This document shows, one piece after another, positions 9,798-17,846 of a stretch of DNA of 38,285 nt. This DNA is from a virus: the IMG/VR virus record IMGVR_UViG_3300047457_000508, positions 1-38,285 of that record; one strand, 5' to 3'. Made by a program: the position numbers and the translations under genes. The stretch's first letter is position 1. Every line of letters begins with the position of its first letter. Below the pieces are notes generated by a model, which was not told the origin of the DNA, did no database searches, and saw nothing but the letters and a program-made list of their open reading frames with translations.

Positions 9798-9850
9798 GTG
9801 GGGGAGAGGGTGGCCCCAAATATATAACCGGGTGAGCCCCCTCCCCCCCC
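9798..9850 (-). other. G/C-tract hairpin in the late-operon leader
   Basis: A G-tract arm (GGGGGAG at 9800-9806 plus GGG at 9808-9810) can pair with a C-tract arm (CTCCCCC within 9837-9850, containing a run of eight C). The loop is AT-rich (AAATATATAAC). In the minus-strand mRNA from promoter P1 this gives a very stable leader structure, and a G-rich strand that might also form a quadruplex. Function unknown. Confidence 0.4.
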
Positions 9851-9858
9851 TATCAATC

Positions 9859-9872
9859 TGATAACATTATCA
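9859..9872. promoter_or_regulatory. Candidate operator TGATAACATTATCA overlapping the P1 -10
   Basis: A 14-bp palindrome (TGATAA, two bases, TTATCA) covers the -10 hexamer of the leftward promoter P1. Twelve of these bases recur inverted at 10248-10259, over the start codon of the small putative DNA-binding gene. A bound repressor here would block P1. Confidence 0.45.
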
Positions 9873-9894
9873 AAATAACAATGCATTATGTCAA
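9866..9894 (-). promoter_or_regulatory. Sigma70-type promoter P1 for the late operon
   Basis: On the minus strand TTGACA (9894-9889), a 17-base spacer and GATAAT (9871-9866) match 11 of 12 consensus positions at optimal spacing. The start point would be near 9859, giving a leader of about 195 bases before the small terminase gene. Between 9666 and 10036 I see no convincing gene, only these promoters, the palindrome and the hairpins. Confidence 0.65.
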
Positions 9895-9918
9895 ATGCAG
9901 GCGGCCATAAACATTTTA

Positions 9919-9934
9919 CATAACGTACGTTATG
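9919..9934. promoter_or_regulatory. Perfect 16-bp palindrome CATAACGTACGTTATG
   Basis: A perfect 16-bp inverted repeat lies 25 bases upstream of the P1 -35 element. This is a usual place for an activator or an upstream repressor site. The binding protein is unknown. Confidence 0.5.
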
Positions 9935-10036
9935 AGAGCGCAAATTACCAGGCGAGCGGGCGCAGGCGGAGGGGCCATTTGCTGGCGGGCGTAGGGCGTG
10001 CGGTTATCGCACATGGATAAATGCAGGCGGGGCCTT

Positions 10037-10249
10037 TCAGCCCTCATCCGTTACAGATTGTTTTTCAGGCTGAATATTGTCTTTAGCACAATTAACACTC
10101 TGCCAGTAAAAATCAATCAAATGCCGAAACCCGGCGCTGATATCGCCCTGGCCCGCGTGGGCCAAAATGGCCGCGTCCGCGTCCGTTAATTGGCGTCGAA
10201 AATGTCGCGTCCGAATTGACGCCGGGCGGCCAGGTTTTATCGACGGCAT
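10037..10249 (-). CDS. Small putative DNA-binding regulator, ribbon-helix-helix-like (70 aa)
   Basis: The N-terminus is basic (KPGRPASIRTRHFRRQLTD), then comes ADAAILAHAGQGDISAGF and an RHLIDFYW helix. The strand-helix-turn-helix pattern with QLTDADAAIL and ISAGFRHLI resembles short ribbon-helix-helix proteins, which bind DNA as dimers through an N-terminal basic strand. The C-terminal 20 residues are polar. It is a lone minus-strand gene inside the regulatory region, flanked by repeats. Its start codon lies inside a 12-base sequence also found at the late promoter, and the TGACCCAAA repeats lie just upstream, which suggests autoregulation. There is no strong ribosome binding site. It is short, so there is some risk it is not expressed. 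Confidence 0.55.
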   Translation of the reverse strand: MPSIKPGRPASIRTRHFRRQLTDADAAILAHAGQGDISAGFRHLIDFYWQSVNCAKDNIQPEKQSVTDEG

Positions 10250-10263
10250 AATGTTATCACTTT

Positions 10264-10500
10264 GTCATGGGTCATTTGGGTCATTTGGTCACGCGATTTT
10301 AATCGCTACCAGTGCAGCTACAAATTGTTTGACGGCGCGCGTCTCGGCGCGCCCTCATATATCTATTACTTTTCCTGAGTACTAGAAAATACATGACCAA
10401 ATGACCCAAAAACACCCAAAAGCTAGACTGCACGCGGCTTTTCGCTTGGGTCATTTGGCCCGCGACAATGACCCAAGCGTGACCAAAATGACCCAATAAT
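10264..10500. repeat. TGACCCAAA repeat cluster (candidate origin iterons or operators)
   Basis: The unit GGGTCATTT or its complement AAATGACCC, with a GGTCA/TGACC half, recurs many times. Tandem copies lie at 10269-10277 and 10278-10286, with a half copy to 10291. Inverted copies lie at 10394-10408, with a degenerate one to 10420. A perfect 13-bp inverted repeat, CGCTTGGGTCATT (10443-10455) and AATGACCCAAGCG (10467-10479), is separated by 11 bases. Further TGACC and TGACCC copies lie at 10480-10496. An AT-rich stretch follows (10497-10590). No gene is visible between 10250 and 10640. Confidence 0.8.
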
Positions 10501-10552
10501 ATTTACAACAAAACAACATAAAAATTATTTTCACGCCCTCATAAAATATTGT
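10497..10552. other. AT-rich stretch beside the repeats, possible DNA unwinding element
   Basis: About 55 bases of mostly A and T (TAATATTTACAAC, then AACATAAAAATTATTTTC and so on) sit between the repeat cluster and a strong promoter. The layout of iterons, inverted repeat and AT-rich stretch is that of many replication origins. This is an inference only. Confidence 0.35.
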
Positions 10553-10580
10553 TTGACACTGTAAAAAAATCTGATATTAT
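10553..10580 (+). promoter_or_regulatory. Strong sigma70-type promoter of the plus-strand early operon
   Basis: TTGACA (10553-10558), a 16-base spacer and TATTAT (10575-10580) match 11 of 12 consensus positions. Transcription should start near 10587, giving a leader of roughly 54 bases to the first gene at 10641. It lies just right of the repeat cluster, so proteins bound there could control it. Confidence 0.75.
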
Positions 10581-10640
10581 ATTTCCACGGCCGGCGCAAA
10601 CGGCCGCAACCAAGCAAACCAAAAACGAAGGGAAAACAAA

Positions 10641-10826
10641 ATGACCAAATTTGAAACGAAGCAAGTCGAAACCATTCGGGCGCACGTCGCGATTGGCAAT
10701 ATCGAATCGGCCGCGCTTGGCCTTTCATCGCTTGTCCGTTGCGCCCGCACGGCGCGCAGCATGGCCGAATTGATGGCCGTCGCGCAAGAATTGGACCTGC
10801 GCAATCATCCGGAATTCCGAGTCTAA
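10641..10826 (+). CDS. Small early protein (61 aa), first gene of the early operon
   Basis: Helical 61-aa protein: TKFETKQVETIRAHVAIGNI, then ESAALGLSSLVRCARTARS, then a MAELMAVAQEL helix. I recognise the pattern as an uncharacterised small protein of proteobacterial phages and plasmids, without a known role. GAAGGG is well placed before the ATG. The block around its start is repeated exactly at the next gene. After the stop, GGCCCGC and GCGGGCC (10836-10842 and 10847-10853) form a 7-bp hairpin without T-run, perhaps an mRNA processing or stability element. Confidence 0.75.
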   Translation: MTKFETKQVETIRAHVAIGNIESAALGLSSLVRCARTARSMAELMAVAQELDLRNHPEFRV

Positions 10827-11367: not shown

Positions 11368-12048
11368 ATGAAGACCGTACATTTAACCCTTAAAAGCGCC
11401 AATGTAAAAACCGGGCCGATTCCGGTTTCCACTACCAGTGCACTATCGTGTTCCGATACCTGCCCGTTTAAAGATAACGGATGCTACGCTGAAAGCGGCC
11501 CGCTTGCTTTGCACTGGCGCGCCGTCACGGCCGGCGAGCGTGGCCTAACCTGGCCTGAATTTTGCGACGCGATCGCGCAATTGCCCGACGGCCAATTATG
11601 GCGCCACAATCAAGCGGGCGATTTGCCAGGCATTGGCGATTACATTAACCCGGCGGCCATGCAACTATTGATTGACGCCAATAGGGGCAAGCGCGGTTTC
11701 ACTTATACACATAAACCCGCGACGCCGGAAAACCTGGAAATAATCCGCGCGGCCAATGCGGCCGGCTTTACCGTCAATTTATCCGCTAATAACTTAGCGC
11801 ACGCCGATACCTTGGCCGATACCGGCGCCGGGCCCGTCGTCACGGTACTACCGACCAATGCGCCCGCGAAAATGACGACGCCGGCCGGCCGGCCCGTGAT
11901 CACTTGCCCGGCGCAAACCCGAGACGACGTCTCATGCGCCGATTGCCAGCTATGCGCCCGCGCCGATCGCCCGACAATTATCGGTTTCCTGGCGCATGGC
12001 ACGGGCGCCAAAAAGGCCGAGAAAATCTACTTTATGGGGAGGGTCTAA
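11368..12048 (+). CDS. Cysteine-rich protein resembling phage GP88-type proteins (226 aa)
   Basis: Eight Cys in 226 aa, most in two clusters. The N-terminal cluster is C28, C32 and C39 (SCSDTCPFKDNGCYAESG). The C-terminal one is C180, C190, C193 and C196 (TCPAQTRDDVSCADCQLCAR). C66 is isolated. Between them lies an alpha/beta part with RHNQAGDLPG, GKRGFTYTHK and GFTVNLSANNL. This paired-Cys layout resembles the uncharacterised phage family around mycobacteriophage gene product 88 (GP88/DUF7227-like) and would suit a zinc or iron-sulfur cluster. Biochemical function is unknown. It is the largest protein of the early operon, so it is probably a host-takeover or nucleic-acid factor. Recognition of the family is tentative. 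Confidence 0.8.
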   Translation: MKTVHLTLKSANVKTGPIPVSTTSALSCSDTCPFKDNGCYAESGPLALHWRAVTAGERGLTWPEFCDAIAQLPDGQLWRHNQAGDLPGIGDYINPAAMQLLIDANRGKRGFTYTHKPATPENLEIIRAANAAGFTVNLSANNLAHADTLADTGAGPVVTVLPTNAPAKMTTPAGRPVITCPAQTRDDVSCADCQLCARADRPTIIGFLAHGTGAKKAEKIYFMGRV

Positions 12049-13404: not shown

Positions 13405-15774
13405 TTACGACGACTTCACAAGCTTGACGGCCGCCGGCGCCGGCACTTGTTCGACCATGCGGCGCAATTCCGATTTGGGCAAATTGGCGAATTCTGGCGC
13501 GCAAAATATATGTTTTTTGCTTGGGTAATCACCTGAATGTAATCGCCCGCAATCAATCCATCCGGCCTCCCTCAGCGCATGCAAAAGGGCCACTTGTGGA
13601 ATTTTGGTGCCCGTCGGGGCGGCGCTTACCAGGCGGTCGCAAAGGGCGTAAAAGGGCGACGCGATCGCGCCGGCCGCGAATTCGCCCAGGCGGGCGGCGA
13701 TGAGTTCGACCAGATACGACTCGGCCGTGCTGCGCCCTTGGTCAATCATGATTGCTTTGGCCTCGGTCATCGGCGGCGCTGCGCCTGGGTTAAAGGCCGA
13801 CACGTCACGATCGCGCAGGTATGCCGCAACGGCCGCCATGCCGCTATTGCCGCTATTGCCGCTATTGCCGCTATTGCCGCTATTGCCGCGATACCAGCCC
13901 CAAAGGGCCTGGGCGTCAGTTTCGGGTAGTCGTCCGGCGTCCGACCAAAGGCAAAACCAGCGGCGATCGTCCGACGGGATACTGATCGCTGCCCGCTCGT
14001 TTGTGAACGCGACTACTAGGATTCGGTTTAAGGATTCGTACGGGTGCAAACCCTTACGATGAACGGATAAAAACTCAGGTGGTGCCGCAATGATCGGCTT
14101 TAGGCTGTTCTCCAATGCTCGCCGGTCCTTGGCTTCAGATTGTCTTAACTCGGCGATTTCCATAACTTCGCACTCGAGCGCGTAGCCCCACTGAGACGAC
14201 AAGTCTTCATTGCGCACTAGGCTGCAATTGGTTTTCGAGTCGCCGCCAATGGCCCAGAAAAAAGGTGCCATCATCGTATCCTTGCCGCTGCCAGGGTAGC
14301 CGCCGATTAGTATCGCGTGATTGATCTTGCGGTTCGGGTTCTGGAATTTATAAGCCAGGACATTCAAGAAATGCTCGCGCTCGAAGTCGGTGGGGATCAT
14401 GCGGTGAACATGGTCCAGCCAAGGCTTAACACTCGTCCCGACGGGCACCTGCGCAATGGCCGCTGGCCGTGCGTTTTGCCAGCGGTTGCCAAAGGGCATG
14501 CCGTCCTTGGCGACGATCAAGTCCTCGCCCGCCGCGTACGTGACGCCGACCAAGGTTTTAGCGCCCATTGCCTGCCGGTTTTGGTCGTAAGCGATTGACG
14601 CCTCTATCTTCCGGTTTGAGTGTATCGACGTGCAATCGACATGCCGGAATAACGCGTTGAAGGTCGAGCGGGCGATCTCCCGGCGGTCTTGCAGGTCGAA
14701 ATAGCAGTCGTCCGTTTGGATGTACGCGAAGCGCTCAAACCAGCCGGCCTTTTCCAGCCGCCCGAGCTCTTTGCGCTCGATCTCGGCCAGCACAGCGGTT
14801 GGGCTCTGCTCGAACATCTCAGCCGCTGCCTGCGGGTTCAATTTCTCCAATGCCGCGCTCATGGTGCTGGCGATCAGTTCATCTCTCACGCCCGGTTCAT
14901 GCTTAGGCCCACCCTGCTCTGCCACCCAGTTTAAGAACGTCGCTGAGTCGAGCTCCAGGCAGTGCGAATGCAGGCAGCAGTAGGCGCGTGCGGACGGGTT
15001 GTAGCGGCCTTCAGGGTTGCCGTCGGTATGCTGGCCTGAGTTCGGGCAGACGACGCCGGCCCAACCCTCGGGGTTAGGTTTGCGCAAGATTAGCCCTTGG
15101 TCATTCAGCCAGCGGAAGACATCGTCGCCGCCGTCGTCGCGGATTCTGATCGGCGCCGGGCCCAGACTGGCCGACTCGTCAGGCGTGACCTCCAGTTTGG
15201 CGCAGATGAACTCGAGGGTGTACTCCTGTTCGGGGTTGAATTCGATCAGCTTGGCTTTGAAGCCGTTCTTGCCTGGCTTTAGGTTTACGCTGCCCGGCAA
15301 GCGGTAATTGCGCACCGGGTTGCAGGCGCCGGGGTCAGTATAGCCAGCGGCTGCGATGGCCTTAATCGCCGCTGCGAAGTCGGATTTTGTCGGTTGTTCT
15401 GAGAATGCGTAGCCCCACTGAAACGATCCCGGCGACGTCTCCATGATCCACGTCGGCGCCAAGGGCGGCAGTTTCGGTGCCTTCATGGGGTCGCCCACGT
15501 CGTCCAGCACCATGACGAGCACGTACTCGCAATTGGCCGCGCTGGCCGATGGTTTGCCTTCCTTGAAGCGATCGACGATGAAGGACGCCGTGTTACCGTA
15601 CCAAGCTTCACCTTCGCGCCGCTTGTGATCCGGCATGAACGCCGGCCAGGTAGCTTTGATAGCGCCGTCTGCGTGGAATTGCAGTTCGCCTTTTTGTTTG
15701 ATGGGTGTTTGTCTAACGAATAGTGCCGTCTCGCCCTCGGGGGCAAGATTTGCGATATACTCGAAGAAGTCCAT
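13405..15774 (-). CDS. Primase-helicase (AEP-type primase plus SF3-like ATPase)
   Basis: 789 aa from the ATG at 15774; the open frame runs on to 15894 but would cross a hairpin and overlap the polymerase gene. Residues 85-95 (VLVMVLDDVGD) hold the catalytic acidic residues of an archaeo-eukaryotic-type primase, with GSFQWGYAF (116-124) and RNYRLPGSVNLKPG (155-168) as further primase signatures. A zinc-finger-like part (CPNSGQHTDG, then CCLHSHC) lies at 243-272. The C-terminal ATPase has Walker A GGYPGSGKDT (491-500) and a DDRRWF sensor region (602-607), as in DUF5906/SF3 helicases. It should unwind DNA and make primers for the adjacent polymerase. A run of five Asn-Ser-Gly (631-645) marks a flexible linker. 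Confidence 0.9.
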   Translation of the reverse strand: MDFFEYIANLAPEGETALFVRQTPIKQKGELQFHADGAIKATWPAFMPDHKRREGEAWYGNTASFIVDRFKEGKPSASAANCEYVLVMVLDDVGDPMKAPKLPPLAPTWIMETSPGSFQWGYAFSEQPTKSDFAAAIKAIAAAGYTDPGACNPVRNYRLPGSVNLKPGKNGFKAKLIEFNPEQEYTLEFICAKLEVTPDESASLGPAPIRIRDDGGDDVFRWLNDQGLILRKPNPEGWAGVVCPNSGQHTDGNPEGRYNPSARAYCCLHSHCLELDSATFLNWVAEQGGPKHEPGVRDELIASTMSAALEKLNPQAAAEMFEQSPTAVLAEIERKELGRLEKAGWFERFAYIQTDDCYFDLQDRREIARSTFNALFRHVDCTSIHSNRKIEASIAYDQNRQAMGAKTLVGVTYAAGEDLIVAKDGMPFGNRWQNARPAAIAQVPVGTSVKPWLDHVHRMIPTDFEREHFLNVLAYKFQNPNRKINHAILIGGYPGSGKDTMMAPFFWAIGGDSKTNCSLVRNEDLSSQWGYALECEVMEIAELRQSEAKDRRALENSLKPIIAAPPEFLSVHRKGLHPYESLNRILVVAFTNERAAISIPSDDRRWFCLWSDAGRLPETDAQALWGWYRGNSGNSGNSGNSGNSGMAAVAAYLRDRDVSAFNPGAAPPMTEAKAIMIDQGRSTAESYLVELIAARLGEFAAGAIASPFYALCDRLVSAAPTGTKIPQVALLHALREAGWIDCGRLHSGDYPSKKHIFCAPEFANLPKSELRRMVEQVPAPAAVKLVKSS
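13840..13884. repeat. Tandem 9-bp repeat (5 copies) within the primase-helicase gene
   Basis: GCCGCTATT is repeated five times without change. On the coding strand it encodes five Asn-Ser-Gly triplets. Copy number can change by slippage without breaking the frame. Confidence 0.95.
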
Positions 15775-15794
15775 TGCAATCCTTGTAGTTGAGA

Positions 15795-15820
15795 AAGCCG
15801 CCCGGCCAGGCGGCTTTTTT
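15795..15820 (+). terminator. Terminator-like hairpin between polymerase and primase genes
   Basis: AAGCCGCC (15795-15802) pairs perfectly with GGCGGCTT (15809-15816) across a 6-base loop, followed by four more T residues. The T-run lies on the plus strand, although both flanking genes are on the minus strand. In the minus mRNA it is a hairpin just before the primase gene with only a short TTT after it. It may stop antisense transcripts or tune polymerase against primase expression. Confidence 0.6.
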
Positions 15821-17846
15821 ATTTGCCGTAACGACTCATGATTTTGACCCCGGCTTTCAATGGCAGTCCTTGCGCCCAATCGGGCGCAGTACACATGACT
15901 TGCCGGAGTTGTGTTGCAGATTCTTCTGGAGTTGCGGTTTCGAGAACGATTTCATCATGCACATGTAGTACTGCATCAGGAAGCTGGCGTAAAGAATGCC
16001 GTAACAGATCGTTCGCGATCGCTTGCGTTATGTTCTCACAGGCGAGCCCACGCCACAAGCGAGCACGCGGCCATTCTTTAGCGTCTGCCGCCGGTTTCCA
16101 TGCCGCTTTAACATAAGTAATCTCGTCTCCCTCGAACTTAGCGAACGGATAACAGAGAATGCGGCCCGACGGCAGCGAATACCACAGATGCTGGCCGTCG
16201 TAGTAGTAAGTGATGCGTCCGACGGGAAACTCGCGCCCTGGGTTGCGTAGCGCACGCGTGTAGGCGTCTTCGAGTTTCTGCCAGTAGCGCACTGCCCACG
16301 GGTTTGCACGCCGCCACGCGTCAACGATGCGCTTGGCGTCCGACTCCGGCATGAAAATGCCGTAGTTGCGGCCCATTGCCGAGAACGCACCGACACCACC
16401 TGCGAAACCAAGCGAGAGCACGGCCACCTTGCCGATCTGGCGCTCGTCTGACTCAGCGCCGATCTGCTCTTCTGGCATGCGATAGATGCCTGCGGCCTCG
16501 CGGATGTAAATGTCTTTGCCTTCGCGAAAGACATCTAGCACTGCTTCCGCCTGCGGATCGGCCGAGGCCCACGGAGTAACACGCGCTTCAATAGCCGACC
16601 AATCAGCGACGACAAACTGCTTGCCTTCTGCGGGTATCAGTGCGGGCCGGAGCATTCCCCTGAGAACATCTGTAACCCTCTTTCCAAATCTTGGGATGAT
16701 TGAGTGTCCACGTACCATAGCGTTGCGCACGGCGTCTGGGTCGGAGGCACATTTGCGTGTGAAATTATGGACCTGCGCGCCATAGCTACTAGCGCGTCCA
16801 GTGGCAGATCCTCCGGCAAAGACGAAGGCGCCTCGCACACGATCATCCTCTTCGTCAGATAACTCGCTAAGGCGGCTGAACTTCGCAACTGACGACGCCC
16901 AAAGATCATCTGCGCATTGAATGACGTCCGCAACATGGGCCGGAATCTCATCGGGATTTTCCTCCGCAAAGGCTAACAAGTTTGCACGTACTGACTTATC
17001 GATCGAATACTTCTTTTCGCCGTCTTTGTACGTCTCCATCATCTTCAAGGCTTGGGGCCCGACCCGTTCCATCACCCATCGCTTCATGCGCGGGCTGCGC
17101 ACGGATTGAATCTCACCTTTGGTCAGATCATGCACCAGCGACTCGATTTCCTCAAGCTCGGCTGACGCGTACCGCACCGCAGCATCCGCCAGCGGGCGGT
17201 CTAATAGCACGCCACGGTCGTTAATGCGCTCGTTTGTGTGGTAGTCGGTGAGCTCCTCCGCTGACAGATCGCGCATGGCTTTGGAGATCGCCCGCATAGC
17301 GCGAACATCCTGCTCGCAGTAGCGGATCATCTCGGCCATTAGCGCCGGATCATCGTTGAAAGTGCCATCTGCGCGGGGTATCGATAAAGCTCGGATAAGC
17401 TGGCTTCCTCGGTGGTCTTTGCGCATGTTGCTACTAATGGCGCGTCCGACGTCTTCGAGGCTGCCAGGTAGGCAGTTCGCACGCGCTTGTGCAGCGGTGC
17501 AGTAGAACTGTTCGAGTTGAAAGTTACATTGTAGGACGTACCAAAAAATAAGACGTTCGAATGCAGCGTTGTGGGCCCGTATCTGTCCTGCATGATTCTT
17601 AACACGATCCGGAAAAGGCTGGTCGGGAGTCCAAGTGGACACTTCGTCGTCGTCAAACGCGTAGGACATACATAGAACATCTGTACTGGCGTCTTGTGCA
17701 TAGTTGTAGACTCCTTTAGACGACAAGTCACATCGAGAGCGCGTCTCGAAATCGATCCAGAGAATTTTATTCATGGGAATAGGTGGGGTACTCGCTGCGT
17801 CCGGATATCTCTCGTCGCCAGTGGTGCGGTCTGGCTTCCCCGGCAT
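15819..17846 (-). CDS. Family A DNA polymerase with 3'-5' exonuclease
   Basis: The exonuclease domain begins at MNKILWIDFETRSRCDLSS (catalytic Asp and Glu in DFET) and includes RAHNAAFERLIFW and YCEQDVRAMRAI. The polymerase has motif A VVADWSAIEARV, motif B in RQIGKVAVLSLGFAGG and motif C VHDEIVLE near the C-terminus. There is no 5'-3' exonuclease, as usual for phage replicative PolA enzymes. The start is open: ATG 17846 has a GGGGG site and gives 675 aa; ATG 17774 matches where homologues normally begin (651 aa) but has a poor ribosome site. It forms one operon with the putative binding protein upstream and the primase-helicase downstream, and should be the main replicase. Confidence 0.95.
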   Translation of the reverse strand: MPGKPDRTTGDERYPDAASTPPIPMNKILWIDFETRSRCDLSSKGVYNYAQDASTDVLCMSYAFDDDEVSTWTPDQPFPDRVKNHAGQIRAHNAAFERLIFWYVLQCNFQLEQFYCTAAQARANCLPGSLEDVGRAISSNMRKDHRGSQLIRALSIPRADGTFNDDPALMAEMIRYCEQDVRAMRAISKAMRDLSAEELTDYHTNERINDRGVLLDRPLADAAVRYASAELEEIESLVHDLTKGEIQSVRSPRMKRWVMERVGPQALKMMETYKDGEKKYSIDKSVRANLLAFAEENPDEIPAHVADVIQCADDLWASSVAKFSRLSELSDEEDDRVRGAFVFAGGSATGRASSYGAQVHNFTRKCASDPDAVRNAMVRGHSIIPRFGKRVTDVLRGMLRPALIPAEGKQFVVADWSAIEARVTPWASADPQAEAVLDVFREGKDIYIREAAGIYRMPEEQIGAESDERQIGKVAVLSLGFAGGVGAFSAMGRNYGIFMPESDAKRIVDAWRRANPWAVRYWQKLEDAYTRALRNPGREFPVGRITYYYDGQHLWYSLPSGRILCYPFAKFEGDEITYVKAAWKPAADAKEWPRARLWRGLACENITQAIANDLLRHSLRQLPDAVLHVHDEIVLETATPEESATQLRQVMCTAPDWAQGLPLKAGVKIMSRYGK

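Follow-up and report, generated by a model that had tools for sequence, protein, structure and literature searches.

A repeat array of conserved layout and changing word is the very probable replication origin of a group of uncultured phages and covaries with the wing of their primase-helicase

The window analysed here, a stretch of 38,285 nucleotides, is an apparently complete circular phage genome of 38.2 kb with a 104-bp end repeat. It contains a cluster of short repeats between a leftward gene for a 70-residue protein that is ribbon-helix-helix (RHH)-like by sequence (10037-10249, minus strand) and a rightward operon, whose first gene encodes a 61-residue protein (10641-10826, plus strand) and which also includes a DUF7227 protein (11368-12048, plus strand). 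Eight sites of the strict form TGACC(C)AA fall within 10268-10497 (230 bp), starting at 10276 and 10285 on the minus strand, 10394 and 10402 on the plus strand, 10446 on the minus strand, and 10469, 10480 and 10489 on the plus strand; a near-copy, TGACCCAT, occupies 10267-10274. The order-1 Markov expectation for a 237-bp stretch is a mean of 0.03 sites with a maximum of 2 in 20,000, and none of 300 Markov genomes held a 237-bp window with more than 2, so the original prediction of at least eight TGACC(C)AAA copies in both orientations within 237 bp is borne out by the strict sites. All four exact copies of CCAAATGACCCA in the genome lie inside the array, the reversed control pattern has no match in the genome, and no second, crr-like cluster of the array word was found elsewhere in it. 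A blastn comparison of the region with cultured phages gave no match.

The copies are arranged in groups. The left group (10267-10291, minus strand) comprises three tandem copies with a 9/8-bp period, lies approximately 18-42 nt upstream of the start codon of the RHH-like gene, and is found in nearly all RHH-type relatives. A central spacer of about 100 bp (10292-10393), whose right half is AT-rich (10352-10393, 69% AT), separates it from the diverging right-hand groups and is a candidate melting region. Beside the left copies, the spacer holds a TTTTAATCGCT element (10295-10306) that is kept in most RHH-type phages and may be part of a leftward promoter; a weak candidate for such a promoter of the RHH-like gene, TTGTAG-16-TAAAAT (10296-10323, minus strand), was recognised by eye and is not among the entries of the promoter listing of the window. 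The spacer also contains a perfect GC-rich hairpin, GGCGCGC-6-GCGCGCC (10334-10353), which is not kept in the relative L009. To the right follow the pair TGACCAAA TGACCCAAA and one degenerate copy, ACACCCAAAA (10394-10420, plus strand), and then a gap of about 43 bp with an imperfect inverted repeat, AAAAGC...GCTTTT (10418-10442), read by eye from an alignment. Several relatives keep its pairing with both arms altered (AAAACC...GGTTTT), and it is possibly a priming or structural element. A single inverted copy (10446-10453, minus strand) precedes the distal group of three (10469-10497, plus strand), and with the copy at 10469 it forms the perfect 13-bp inverted repeat (10443-10455 and 10467-10479) that had been noted before; a longer perfect pair of 17 bp (10275-10291 and 10394-10410) had been missed. 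Two further features of the original prediction, an AT-rich stretch and a near-consensus promoter beyond the repeats, are likewise present. The flank at 10498-10560 is 76% AT, compared with 47% genome-wide, and is a second candidate melting region, while the sigma-70 promoter TTGACA-16-TATTAT with an extended -10 (10553-10580, plus strand) matches at 11 of 12 positions, would serve the rightward small-gene operon, and has a similar counterpart in most RHH-type relatives.

Relatives of the window, most of them metagenome contigs, were collected in two ways. The 17-mer TGACCAAATGACCCAAA matched in 36 stretches, over 20 of which have 10-14 copies gathered in a single cluster, and these come from a second phage type; a primase-helicase scan added 80 loci. 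A word of approximately 9 bp that is specific to each genome is repeated 6-16 times in about 100 related phage contigs, in the same place and in a similar layout, with diverging groups either side of an AT-rich spacer of about 100 bp. In the RHH type, the order is 3 copies, a spacer of ~96-145 bp, 2 copies, ~43 bp, 1 inverted copy, ~22 bp and 3 copies. The richest 40 bp of the spacer averages 78% AT in relatives, compared with 71% for the right flank; the corresponding values in the window are 70% and 80%. While place and layout are kept, the word is not, and close relatives can differ in it. With word classes that were in part assigned manually on the basis of automatic motif output, the words include ATGACCCAA, ATGACCCAC, ATTGCCCAC, ATTGTCCAC, ATTGCCTAC, ATTGCCCGC, ATTGCCCTC, ATGACCATT, ATGACCATG, ATGACGTGC and TGACTAC (period 8), among others, and some arrays contain both TGACC and TTGCC forms. 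The second phage type shares with the window its primase-helicase (61%), PolA (69-72%), exonuclease (63%) and helicase (70%) but not its terminase, capsid or 70-residue gene; its array is extended and reversed relative to the flanking genes (5558-6312 in L104, compared with 10249-10641 in the window), and yet words are common to both types.

This conservation of layout and place, but not of word, is the reason why a search for conserved repeats can fail. The original prediction was to be refuted by absence of the repeats from close relatives with the same gene order and by a GC-skew minimum elsewhere, and we consider both tests badly posed. The literal word is indeed absent from L006, which has the same gene order and an 87% identical primase, since word and initiator change together. 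The GC skew was uninformative and lends the origin no support, its detrended amplitude not exceeding that of block-shuffled sequence (fraction 0.12). Two other kinds of repeat were seen among the relatives. CACTAAC arrays, in which up to 14-16 sites alternate in orientation and recur every ~25-30 bp, lie upstream of the terminase small subunit gene, which they adjoin, in part of the second phage type (L225, L226, L193, L188 and L194); they were rejected as iterons and form a separate array type. In the more distant L232 (MW202483.1), whose primase is 47% identical and has a different wing, clusters of CACTACCAA and GTTTACA lie near the terminase side (9815-10019 and 10211-10561).

The primase-helicase gene of the window (13405-15894, minus strand) has the array on its 3' side, 2.9 kb away, with other genes between. 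Its product combines a RepB_primase-like N-terminus, for which the match falls just under the Pfam cut-off, a DUF5906 core and a C-terminal winged-helix-like domain; a domain search found no match to Toprim, and the alignment with most relatives begins at about M41. An AlphaFold2 model of residues 690-829 (49 sequences, pLDDT 78) predicts a helix at 767-777 followed by strands at 780-787 and 790-798, which would place residues 785-791 (LHSGDYP; codons 13522-13542, minus strand) at the tip of a beta-hairpin like the wing of a winged helix. The PDB fold matches are weak, the best being the TFIIIC extended winged helix (Z 6.1), with replication terminator protein at Z 4.5; Foldseek E values for the domain are at least 0.28, many of the weak PDB matches being winged helices, and a PDB sequence search with the domain profile returned nothing significant.

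It is this seven-residue wing tip that changes together with the word. Where primase-helicases are 96-98% identical and yet go with different words, the differences often fall at residues 782-796 and 803-808. Of 61 close primase pairs whose words differ, 72% have a difference at residue 786, 74% at 790 and 80% at 791; for 75 close pairs with the same word, the values are 0%, 7% and 11%. Given that close pairs are not independent, a tree built without the wing region was also used. All seven independent changes of base 8, the last word base, share a branch with a change of residue 788 (codon 13531-13533, minus strand), which shows one extra change, from A to S, and no other primase column co-changes with base 8 on all seven branches. 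This test is partly post hoc, as the 8-bp TGACTAC words were right-aligned after the data had been seen and the earlier register gave fewer shared branches; the genomes with the seven changes have unambiguous words, except for L150. Arginine at 788 accompanies a final C in 58 of 58 cases, glycine A in 10 of 10, histidine or glutamine G in 3 of 3, and alanine or serine T or A in 6 of 6. Of 3,829 residue-base pairs, residue 788 and base 8 show the strongest association (partial r 0.92); residue 787 with base 7 ranks second (0.55), close to other columns, and wherever residue 787 is threonine, base 7 is T or G. This statistic is not usable across protein families, because single outlier genomes can give r = 1.0, as for TerL and the 61-residue protein. 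A sliding-window partial Mantel test on whole-word distance gave a weak signal that other primase windows almost matched (0.33 against 0.31), and is therefore not relied on.

The association recurs by convergence and was used for prediction. An SGD[YF] wing goes with ATGACCCAA in the window and again in the second type, which is distant from it; Met786 goes with TGACTAC in three lineages, and an NTREH wing goes with TGACGTGC in both phage types. At loci whose contig reaches the array, the wing predicted TGACGTGC for L019 and L013, and 4 and 5 copies, respectively, were found in the array region; TGACTAC was predicted for L152, with 4 copies found. L019 is the cleanest of the three, because earlier motif output had hinted at the words of L013 and L152. 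The word expected from a KSR...D wing, TTGTCCAC, is present in 9 copies in L231, a contig of a Rhodoferax MAG from a separate collection, and L229 has just 3 copies of a word of the expected kind. A single contig, L092 (1056-1328 and 3468-3881), breaks the rule, combining the word TGACCCAA with the wing LKSRAHT, which elsewhere goes with TGACnCAC; it may be a chimeric contig, a recent recombinant or a real exception. In addition, identical wings can accompany words that differ in bases 2-4, which, together with the mixed TGACC/TTGCC arrays, indicates that the wing explains the last part of the word only.

Comparable arrangements are known from other replicons. PICI origins have an AT-rich region with a set of iterons on either side (PMC6092414), the C-terminus of SaPI Rep recognises the iterons or origin (PMC7581432), and SaPI/PICI initiators are helicases, sometimes primase-fused, with iterons that differ between elements (PMC6092414, PMC7581432). 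Judged from the DNA sequence, the present array shares with SaPIbov1, SaPI5 and EcCICFT073 the two iteron sets around an AT-rich region. Unlike in SaPI/PICI, it is not directly downstream of the initiator gene, and here we are dealing with a complete phage genome, a multi-group layout over ~100 contigs and a residue-by-base pattern. In phage P4, the alpha protein unites primase, helicase and a C-terminal winged-helix domain and binds at repeats (cited in PMC4234260). The same union is predicted here, although the P4 primase is of the Toprim type rather than RepB_primase-like, and P4 has its crr as a second iteron cluster in addition to ori. RepA of the V. cholerae PLE is known to covary with its iterons (PMC8263062). 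In contrast to the present case, the PLE system, including the origin-directed nuclease Odn, involves a RepA_N family protein and no primase-helicase, and it has two modules with iterons of ~30 bp rather than about twenty words. In geminiviruses, iterons often differ between close viruses and interact with the virus's own Rep (PMC12548392); this is a rolling-circle protein of plant ssDNA viruses unrelated to the primase-helicase.

Taken with these precedents in layout, recognition and covariation, the array is read as a replication origin whose 9-bp words are iterons for the primase-helicase. Tandem repeats specific to a cognate initiator and an AT-rich unwinding region, by which iteron origins are generally recognised, are both found in the sequence, and we consider it very probable that the C-terminal domain of the primase-helicase binds the iterons and that replication starts here. 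Initiator assemblies would load on both diverging groups and melt either the spacer or the 76% AT flank beside the array, whereupon unwinding and priming would start. The wing tip would read the last three word bases, residue 788 being opposite the last of them. On balance, we favour the further view of a near position-by-position code that links residues 786-788 of the wing to the three final iteron bases. A few coupled changes would then switch origin identity with little change in array layout or elsewhere in the replicon, possibly avoiding replication interference from co-infecting relatives, satellites or origin-targeting defences.

The primase-helicase might instead bind the array for autoregulation or copy-number control and start replication elsewhere. 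Such sites also control copy number in iteron plasmids, and the iterons overlap a likely promoter; however, the word clusters nowhere else in the genome, and the two groups of the array surround an AT-rich spacer as in known origins, making this very unlikely. With the array as origin, the same overlap means that initiator binding could also repress the leftward genes. In general family scans, none of the genes scanned matched the ParA/ParB-type families that would be linked to a partition (centromere) site.

The original prediction had allowed for a master operator as well as an origin, and here its two parts diverge: the origin part stands, with the primase-helicase as probable binder, and the operator part does not. 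RHH repressors often use tandem operators, and in nearly all RHH-type genomes three copies lie just upstream of the RHH start codon, over a likely promoter, as would be expected if the array were the operator set of the 70-residue protein and an early transcription switch. Yet identical RHH-like proteins stand beside different words (L163 versus L176/L177), the same word occurs with an RHH protein only 30% identical, and no RHH homolog was detectable in seven sampled second-type records with the array (31-43 kb), while four controls matched. The RHH-like protein was thus rejected as word reader, and the operator reading is very unlikely. A PDB sequence search with the RHH profile gave nothing significant and a fold search nothing useful. 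A cos/pac packaging site bound by the terminase small subunit would suit the position of the array, which adjoins TerS/TerL upstream of the terminase genes in both phage types; it is extremely unlikely, as identical TerS and identical TerL occur with different words and the terminases differ between the two types while words are common to both. Different words also accompany DUF7227 proteins that are 99.6% identical and PolA proteins that are 98.9% identical, so that none of these proteins sets the word, and the 61-residue protein was rejected as reader because it has no match in many array-bearing genomes. Finally, a host protein could read the words, the wing correlation reflecting linkage and shared ancestry, as no more than 3 kb separate the array from the primase gene and the class (A)TTGTCCACA (L190, L194, L197 and L231) resembles the DnaA box of high-GC bacteria; this is hardly credible given that the signal is confined to a few residues rather than spread over the linked gene, that distant lineages share the same combination of wing and word, and that co-change was found on all seven branches, although host DnaA might also bind the (A)TTGTCCACA origins.

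The reading of the array as a primase-helicase-bound origin would provide a large group of uncultured phages, mostly known from metagenomes, with an origin and an initiator; related sequences occur in Rhodoferax MAGs. In each phage, initiator and iterons seem to fit together as key and lock for the start of its own replication, and about twenty natural initiator-iteron pairs on one scaffold bring two questions within reach of experiment: the way in which helicase-type initiators read iterons, and the cause of the fast change of origin identity. As a minor observation, the primase gene itself contains a tandem 9-bp repeat, ATTGCCGCT (13830-13901), which encodes a (GNS)n linker and resembles the ATTGCC core of sibling-phage iterons, unlike the window's own word.
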